From the NCBI GenBank assembly GCA_033065855.1, contig JAVXUO010001272.1, forward strand, positions 134,518 to 198,517: a DNA stretch of 64,000 nt. Direction: 5' to 3'. Of the stretch, positions 19,395-20,630 are shown one piece after another (within the stretch, counting starts at the first letter, position 1; the number at the start of each line of letters is the position of its first letter). The stretch comes from Escallonia rubra. Its lineage: Eukaryota > Streptophyta > Magnoliopsida > Escalloniales > Escalloniaceae. The notes under the pieces were generated by a model that saw only the letters and a program-made list of their open reading frames with translations, had not been told where the DNA came from and ran no database searches. A program made the translations under genes and the position numbers.

Positions 19395-19765
19395 GAATTA
19401 AGGTTGTTGAAACGTCTCTTGCTCCTGTCTTTTAATTCCTCAAGTTCAGCTTCAATTAACTTGTCAATAGACTTCTCTTCCTTATCACATATGACTTTAT
19501 CACATGTTGATAGCTTCTTTGCTGGTTGGTCCTCAACCTGAACTTCTTGATTTTCATCACTCTTCCCTTCTTTATCATCATCCGGAGTAGCTTCTACTTG
19601 ACTGGCACAGGATATACCTTCCTCTTTATGAGCTTGTGCCTTTTCGATGGTTAAGCTTTCTTGAATTGCAGAACTGTCAACAAAAGTATTGGATTTTTTC
19701 TTTGCCAGCACTGTCACCTTTCTGATCATCATCATCAGCATCATCATCATCATAAGTAAAACCCT
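19395..19765 (-). pseudogene. THUMPD1: Captured fragment A of THUMPD1/TAN1 homologue (middle part, antisense)
   Basis: On the minus strand an acidic stretch (poly-Asp near 19753) is followed, after a one-base frame change, by a Lys/Glu/Asp-rich linker. It ends with KSIDKLIEAELEELKDRS and KRRFNNLNS (about 19480-19397). This matches the linker before the THUMP domain in plant THUMP-domain-containing protein 1, the TAN1-like partner of tRNA acetylation. Beyond 19395 the sequence switches abruptly to the GC-rich element interior. The frameshift and truncation make it non-functional. Confidence 0.7.
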
Positions 19766-19778
19766 ATATTATGAATCA

Positions 19779-20012
19779 AGGTTCACGTACTGACCAAAGA
19801 CATGGTGCAACTTGGAATGACATTACTGAAGTTTATGCCATGTGATTATGTGGACAATGTTATGATGATGCTTAGCAAATTGAAATATGGAGATCTGTCT
19901 GAGTGTGGGTTTCGTAGGCCAGCGAAGGGACCATTTTACCTCAAAAGAGCAACAAGTCAAACTCCAGTGATTGATGTCGGGACGATTGACAAAATAAAGA
20001 ACGGAGACGTTC
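19779..20012 (+). pseudogene. YUC: Captured fragment of a YUCCA-type flavin monooxygenase
   Basis: The frame reads KVHVLTKDMVQLGM, then LSKLKYGDLSECGFRRP, then TPVIDVGTIDKIKNGDVQ. This is the central part of plant YUCCA/FMO enzymes, which convert indole-3-pyruvate to auxin. It is closest in pattern to the YUC10/11 group (GDLSxxGxxRPxxGPF, PVxDVGTxxKIKxG). Only about 78 codons remain. The nucleotide-binding motifs are absent, so no enzyme can be made. It is joined to antisense THUMPD1 fragments on both sides. Confidence 0.75.
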
Positions 20013-20142
20013 AGCTCTTCATAAAAAGAATCAAGAACGTTGATGGCTTCATGAGCTGCTTGGCGCTCCCTGCCACCATCGCAAGTTATAAAGCATCCCT
20101 GCACTCCTGGCCGTAATGGGTACCCTCCCTTCTTCACAGGGC
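20013..20142 (-). pseudogene. THUMPD1: Captured fragment B of THUMPD1/TAN1 homologue (N-terminal part, antisense)
   Basis: The minus-strand frame reads SPVKKGGYPLRPGVQG, then FITCDGGRERQAAHEA and DSFYEEL. These are the conserved early residues of THUMPD1-type proteins (KKG-YPLRPGVQG-FxTCDGGRE). Fragment B precedes fragment A on the minus strand, as in the parent gene, but the YUCCA piece lies between them in the opposite orientation. Confidence 0.8.
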
Positions 20143-20379
20143 TGCAATGCGTGTTGTCTTTGTCCAAATGCCTAAGAGAGATGGAGATCCCAGTCCCAAA
20201 GATATAGTTCAATACATGATAACATCTATTGCCTCGACAAGGAAACACATATCAAGATTCATCTTAAGAGTGCTACCGGTTGAAGTTACATGCTATCCGT
20301 CCGAAGAAGAAATCTCCGGAGCAATCAAACCTCTCATTGTTCGATACTTTCCTGTGGAAACTCAGACCCCGTATAAGTG
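20141..20379 (+). pseudogene. THUMPD1: Captured fragment C of THUMPD1/TAN1 homologue (THUMP domain, sense)
   Basis: The plus-strand frame reads VVFVQMPKRDGDPSPKDIVQ, then ASTRKHISRFILRVLPVEV and [17 protein letters not shown]. This is the THUMP RNA-binding domain of the same protein. It is inverted relative to fragments A and B and joins B head to head near 20140, within the text for GGGCTGCAATGC. The frame then runs into prostaglandin synthase sequence at about 20380. Confidence 0.85.
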
Positions 20380-20630
20380 GTGGATGGTGAACAGCTGATC
20401 GATTCATCAGCCATTATCGATAAATTGAGGGAGAGGATTACTCCCAAGAAATTCACTAGTGCAGTCATTGAGAATGATGAAGAGAAAAAGTGGCGCCAGT
20501 GCGTTGATTCTCATTTGGTGCATATACTATCACCAAACATCTACCGAAATACTTCCGAGGCTTTGGAGTCCTTCGACTATATTACAAGCAACGAAACATG
20601 GGTGAATGCACTTGATGGCCGGGACTTCTT
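20380..20630 (+). pseudogene. PTGES2: Captured fragment of prostaglandin E synthase 2-like GST
   Basis: The frame reads [17 protein letters not shown], then [29 protein letters not shown] and [13 protein letters not shown]. This matches plant membrane-associated prostaglandin E synthase 2 homologues (glutaredoxin/GST fold). The segment that normally separates DYIT from ETWV, about 45 residues, is missing, as if an exon had been skipped. That suggests an RNA intermediate. The N-terminal CPYC region is absent. The frame continues into the minisatellite, so the 388-codon open frame that begins here is chimeric. Confidence 0.85.

Follow-up and report, generated by a model that had tools for sequence, protein, structure and literature searches.

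Stepwise capture of mostly spliced host RNAs as the probable origin of a three-gene mosaic inside a non-autonomous LTR retrotransposon of Escallonia rubra

The window, the whole 64,000-nucleotide stretch of Escallonia rubra DNA analysed here (C2153:134518-198517), contains a 10,956-bp LTR element (14748-25703) flanked on both sides by the target site duplication (TSD) AAACT (Table 1). The LTRs have TG...CA ends, and a second insertion on contig C569 is bounded by the short duplication GTTTG. None of the eight long open reading frames (ORFs) tested between the LTRs matched a Pfam family at E 0.01, and thus gag and pol were not found, as claimed in an earlier reading of the window made from the letters alone (the sequence-only reading). 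The carrier is a non-autonomous, LARD-like LTR retrotransposon. The differences between its two LTRs (15 of 1090, 4 of 637 and 1 of 133 compared positions, about 1.1%) indicate a young insertion.

The LTRs also contain tandem arrays of 69, 65 and 18 bp (15339-16191 and 23435-24817), whose copy number is unequal between the two. Identical stretches of GCAGGGGGCTTA occur twice (21817-21828 and 24156-24167), each followed by an LTR start, TGTTC. In the window, the insertion begins at the first type, and on C569 at the second (TGTTCACAACC); the family therefore seems to have alternative LTR starts, two in number, which give LTRs of different length. Elsewhere in the window, two long open frames on the reverse strand (49085-54135) look by eye reverse-transcriptase-/integrase-like and gag-like and probably belong to a gypsy-type element. 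Two others on the same strand (57812-62717) resemble by eye copia-type pol and gag, and an ORF at 3694-4293, also on the reverse strand, is presumably like the acidic N-terminus of a DEAD-box RNA helicase.

Table 1. Features of the LTR element and of its host-gene mosaic (window positions; L012 is C2523:14001-24000)
Feature	Positions	Strand	Details
5' LTR, TG...CA	14748..17077	+	shorter than the 3' LTR; preceded by TSD AAACT
Interior	17078-21828		between the LTRs
Candidate primer-binding-site-like TTTGGCGACTCCGCTGGGGA	17078..17097	+	adjoins 5' LTR end; read from sequence
79-bp tandem array	17486..18164	+	element interior
THUMPD1 middle part	19394..19760	-	L012 ~6478-6813 (exon 6361-6813) spliced to 9055-9078; edge towards YUCCA approximate
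YUCCA-type monooxygenase	19761..20014	+	~13 nt of intron (19761-19773), 8-nt patch (19774-19781), then exon from 19782, stopping precisely at exon end
THUMPD1 patch in YUCCA edge	19772..19783	-	12-nt match to antisense THUMPD1 cDNA 583-594
THUMPD1 N-terminal exon plus 12 nt of next exon	20015..20139	-	L012 exon 3796-3912 from 3799-3802, then L012 6361- (12 nt); intron removed
THUMPD1 THUMP-side part	20140..20377	+	L012 9079-9194 spliced to 9297-9417; ends at exon end
PGES2 cDNA piece	20378..20631	+	exon 2 (part), 3, 4 and last 39 nt of exon 5 (one T missing); stops precisely at exon 5 end
Junction of exon 4 with cryptic acceptor GCTGCAG/ within PGES2 exon 5	20593..20594	+	129 nt absent
Element sequence CCACGTCCACTCGTGACAGCCG	20632..20653	+	directly 3' of PGES2 piece
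35-bp GC-rich tandem array	20658..21697	+
3' LTR	21829..25703	+	followed by TSD AAACT

Five pieces of three host genes fill positions 19394-20631 almost without gaps. They lie in different reading frames, with stops, and Pfam searches of the mosaic's own fragments returned nothing above the curated cut-off. For this reason, gene identity was taken from the parents. A DNA search with positions 19395-20630 against the plant's own genome (566-Mb assembly, used for all own-genome searches) gave 17 matches, including the window itself, a full copy on C569 and the parents, matched exon by exon. All three parents reside in the carrier's own genome, on three contigs, with 95.7-98.9% similarity per BLAST piece (pieces of at least 93 nt). 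The THUMPD1 parent (C2523) has the THUMP domain match PF02926 (1.5e-13) and matches PDB 2dir. The parent on C1093 is a YUCCA-type flavin monooxygenase (PF00743, 3e-27), which we take to be YUC10/11. The parent of the third gene, prostaglandin E synthase 2 (PGES2), is on C2436, with more matches on C2437 and C2981 (PDB 1z9h, 7.5e-50). These parent alignments bear out the mixed-orientation, three-gene mosaic that the sequence-only reading placed between the LTRs; the order and strands of its pieces stood, and their extents were corrected to those in Table 1.

Intron 4 of the C2436 PGES2 gene holds a relic of a related LTR element in sense orientation (L017 8955 to L018 1856; longer matches about 70-77%). 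The PGES2 stretch of C2437 has no such relic match and that of C2981 has two LTR matches.

Alignment of the fragments to the exon borders of their parents revealed the exact removal of five introns, three from THUMPD1 (N-terminal exon/exon 2, exon 2/3 and exon 3/4) and two from PGES2 (exon 2/3 and exon 3/4). The removed introns sit at GT/AG positions, and the third PGES2 exon ends CCA/gtaagt (slashes mark joints). Thus, spliced THUMPD1 and PGES2 RNAs were the sources of these pieces. About 13 nt of the preceding intron remain in the YUCCA piece, so that the term spliced applies to THUMPD1 and PGES2, and the YUCCA edge is unspliced. Capture from RNA, as first proposed for the mosaic, is supported by the introns removed at host splice sites.

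The PGES2 piece also has an internal gap, which had been attributed to a skipped exon. The gap is real, but its joint connects exon 4 (...AGCAACG) to AAACATGG, behind GCTGCAG within exon 5, with the loss of 129 of 168 nt. Retention of the last 39 nt of exon 5 behind an internal acceptor rules out whole-exon skipping. A relative of the element on contig C1246 lacks 95 nt of PGES2 instead (GTACGT...GCTGCAG), using the cryptic acceptor of the window copy. Two different GT...AG cuts of PGES2 hence end at the same cryptic acceptor.

Copies elsewhere in the genome comprise relatives (40 of 1880 candidates scored) and, as the one further copy of the mosaic, the C569 insertion. The window and C569 are identical over 19342-20691 (1350 bp), but 17078-19341 shows 42 substitutions as well as gaps. 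An identical block next to a divergent flank suggests that recombination or conversion probably swapped the mosaic-bearing block between two element backbones. In its finished form the mosaic occupies two insertions whose target duplications differ. This second copy, with other flanks and its own TSD, rules out an assembly chimera.

The joints of the THUMPD1 pieces carry information about the order of events. Antisense THUMPD1 stops at L012:9078 and sense THUMPD1 begins at 9079. As the breakpoints abut, the two THUMPD1 orientations are best explained by the capture of one cDNA whose front part was later inverted; the alternative of two captures, one per strand, was dropped on the same ground. 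The YUCCA piece, in sense orientation relative to the element, splits the inverted part. The 12-nt THUMPD1 patch in the YUCCA edge terminates at the inversion breakpoint and is suggestive only; its 8-nt core was matched in 152 of 3000 shuffles, a figure that covers the core and not the 12-nt match.

The C1246 relative has PGES2 from its ATG on, in a longer version than the mosaic's, without THUMPD1 or YUCCA and with a 3' junction identical to that of the mosaic. PGES2 alone at the same junction indicates stepwise capture rather than one event. Its LTRs differ at 22 of 582 compared positions, which marks it as older than the window insertion. The PGES2 pieces of the two elements differ at 8 of 254 aligned positions, whereas the longer backbone matches outside the arrays show about 86-93% similarity. 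A pair of captures from a single chimeric source, or a transfer by recombination, would explain this better than one old capture. A single capture in an ancestor of both elements, with parts of exon 5 lost separately through splicing of element RNA, would account for the identical 3' junction and the shared cryptic acceptor. We regard it as a possible but doubtful course of events within the broader reading of stepwise capture, given the closer match of PGES2 than of the backbones and the lack of a certain shared derived base. Four apparent shared derived bases in the two PGES2 copies were discounted as belonging to a misaligned stretch.

We also examined the capture site across the family. 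The site sequence CCACGTCCACTCGTGACNGCCG, with up to 2 mismatches, occurs 62 times in the genome (reversed control, 0), and the upstream DNA was viewed for all occurrences, 52 as 300-bp fetches and 10 from loci already in the analysis. Seven of the 62 sites (C2153, C569, C1246, C558, C1330, C466 and C507) carry host cargo, from five loci. The other 55 were called native by eye, the fetched ones on base composition and the last 75 bases, a procedure that misses cargo farther upstream. The C558 cargo is an antisense USP-type cDNA (MYND and UCH domains) with its parent on C983; it matches in seven pieces, 98-100% identical, over query positions 77-982 (906 nt), and introns are absent. This cDNA is nested within older cargo of C1080 origin (192 nt, 92%), which is present without the USP piece on C1330, C466 and C507 (L033, L100 and L101). 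Cargo across the family is about 92-100% like its parents.

C1330 has a longer A-run in its C1080 fragment than do C466 and C1080 itself. An AT-rich segment upstream of the site on C1137, C1281, C2884 and C2933 had 36 further genome matches among the 40 of 206 candidates scored and was therefore dropped as a capture because it is repetitive. We also set aside the idea that the C1246 PGES2 is embedded in C1080 cargo or became joined through homology to it: the match spans about 60 nt at 82% and may partly be PGES2 itself.

These family data bear on whether the mosaic could have been assembled as a DNA-level patchwork, in which nuclear break repair inserts genomic and cDNA scraps that transposition then copies. 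End-joining repair would also fit the THUMPD1 inversion and the mixed orientation, and the intron sequence in the YUCCA edge agrees with genomic scraps. The exact removal of introns from THUMPD1 and PGES2, the intron-free USP cargo and the recurrence of cargo at one site (7 of 62 copies) nonetheless make such an origin highly improbable. Rather, the data probably reflect a non-autonomous LTR retrotransposon that captured host RNAs, mostly spliced, over several separate rounds.

The 3' ends of the sense pieces point to how the RNAs may have been joined. All three end exactly at host exon ends (PGES2 exon 5, the THUMPD1 exon at 9417 and the YUCCA exon). In the genes, PGES2 continues ...CTTG/gtttgt, THUMPD1 CGTATAAG/gtacca (...ATAAG/gtacca) and YUCCA GACGTTCAG/gtactc (...TTCAG/gtactc). 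The chance of three such hits, 3.7e-7, is a rough, post hoc figure that depends on assumed numbers of donors and on partial or assumed transcript lengths. Two of the three sense pieces (PGES2 and YUCCA) also have AG on the receiving side of the joint. The one antisense spliced piece lacks such a splice-type end. PGES2 exon 5/CCACGTCCACTCG is a host-exon/element joint, and its receiving side in many relatives is element ...CATCTTCACAG/CCACG. In relatives without PGES2, CCACGTCCACTCGTGACAGCCG is mostly preceded by CACCACCATCTTCA plus AG or another dinucleotide, and the dinucleotide before the joint at the fetched sites is AG in 32 of 52 (GG in 11, AC in 7, AA in 1 and AT in 1). The receiving side of YUCCA is antisense THUMPD1 (...ACTAG/CTCTTC). 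Exon ends in three of three sense pieces, two behind AG, may point to host exons spliced into the element. The restriction of splice-type ends to sense pieces, expected if splicing acts on element-sense RNA, is a weak indication in the same direction (3 versus 1).

Two joints count against splice assistance. The THUMPD1/PGES2 joint has no AG (TTGG/TGG in the gene, TTGA/TGG in C1246), and the YUCCA piece has intron sequence at its 5' edge. So does the search for an element copy 3' of the donor exons: the fetched stretches of L012-L015 and L019 gave 0 matches, and the element matches in L017, L018 and L020 are all upstream of PGES2 exon 5.

Plain copy-choice, in which reverse transcriptase jumps at microhomologies among co-packaged spliced host mRNAs and element RNA, would treat the exon-end coincidences as chance or favoured stops. 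Joints that in places share 1-2 nt with both sides agree with it, as do the cargoes without donor ends: the USP piece ends ...GATGCG/gaaagg, with no donor, and the C1080 piece, which aligns unbroken with its parent, likewise gives no support for splicing at its end. The 12-nt patch in the YUCCA edge also resembles the patch repair described for retroviruses (PMC4997597). Exon-end stops in all three sense pieces, two of them behind AG, and the GT...AG cuts inside PGES2 lead us to consider this course unlikely. Hence, of the template switching originally invoked, the capture of RNA is retained, while plain switching does not explain three sense pieces that end at exon ends. The case for short homology as the maker of the 5' edges is thin.

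The preferred reading of repeated RNA capture can be laid out as four steps, whose order is inferred. PGES2 RNA would have been captured first, at the element site ...CTTCACAG/CCACG, followed by THUMPD1 RNA upstream of it, which took the place of the PGES2 5' portion. Next, the 5' portion of the THUMPD1 insert would have been inverted, and YUCCA RNA captured into the inverted part. In each round, splicing may have joined an exon of a host pre-mRNA to an acceptor within the element, supplied by an element copy downstream of that exon or in trans. The chimeric RNA would be co-packaged with element RNA, and reverse transcriptase would switch to the element again at the 5' side. Antisense cargo such as the C558 USP-type cDNA would be consistent with a switch to host mRNA in the course of plus-strand synthesis.

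Pack-MULEs and Helitrons also carry mosaics assembled from several host genes, in mixed orientation too, but capture them at the DNA level and retain introns. The element described here shares the mosaic organization but has LTRs and a 5-bp TSD, and five introns were removed, with about 13 nt of YUCCA intron at an edge. Multi-gene capture by LTR elements is already known from maize Bs1, which, as described in a 2026 review, carries segments of three unrelated host genes from three distinct transductions (PMC13317346). The window element likewise combines segments of unlinked host genes, on three contigs. It appears to differ from Bs1 in that no gag or pol was found in it, it carries cargo in both orientations with an inversion, it has PGES2-only and other-cargo relatives in the same genome and it contains three pieces that end at exon ends. 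The review also mentions template switching in Veju and BARE-2 and states that 5'-transduction had not been reported in plants (PMC13317346).

LTR elements carrying captured genes have been counted in rice (672), sorghum (1343) and maize (424) (Jiang and Ramachandran, 2013; PMC3726574). The main text of that study has 0 occurrences of 'intron', 'orientation' or 'multiple genes', and the study does not appear to describe a stepwise series. Oncogene capture by retroviruses, which proceeds by read-through and nonhomologous recombination, is similar in that host RNA is joined to element RNA, with co-packaging, template switching at microhomologies and patches (PMC4997597). Retroviral read-through, however, passes the proviral polyadenylation signal into the host, whereas here the host exons are 5' of element sequence, a 5'-type arrangement. 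No splice-assisted capture series was recognised for a plant LTR family among the titles and abstract openings surveyed, a scope mostly outside subscription papers. What is possibly new here is the recurrent, nested, stepwise and two-strand record of capture with its exon-end pattern, and splice assistance.

Host-gene acquisition by LTR retrotransposons is mostly inferred from end products. The co-occurrence of young copies, a single-gene relative, empty sites and the parents in one genome makes the order, strand and joints readable base by base. We tentatively propose, at somewhat less than even confidence, that a capture hot-spot exists in one plant LTR family, with repeated uptake of spliced RNA via host-exon splicing into element acceptors (5'-type transduction), cargo stacked in cargo, stepwise multi-gene mosaics and intermediates in the same genome. 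Should further copies show the same exon-end pattern, gene capture would have a second route beside plain template switching, namely splicing into element acceptors, and such splicing would supply the 5'-type transduction reported as missing from plants.
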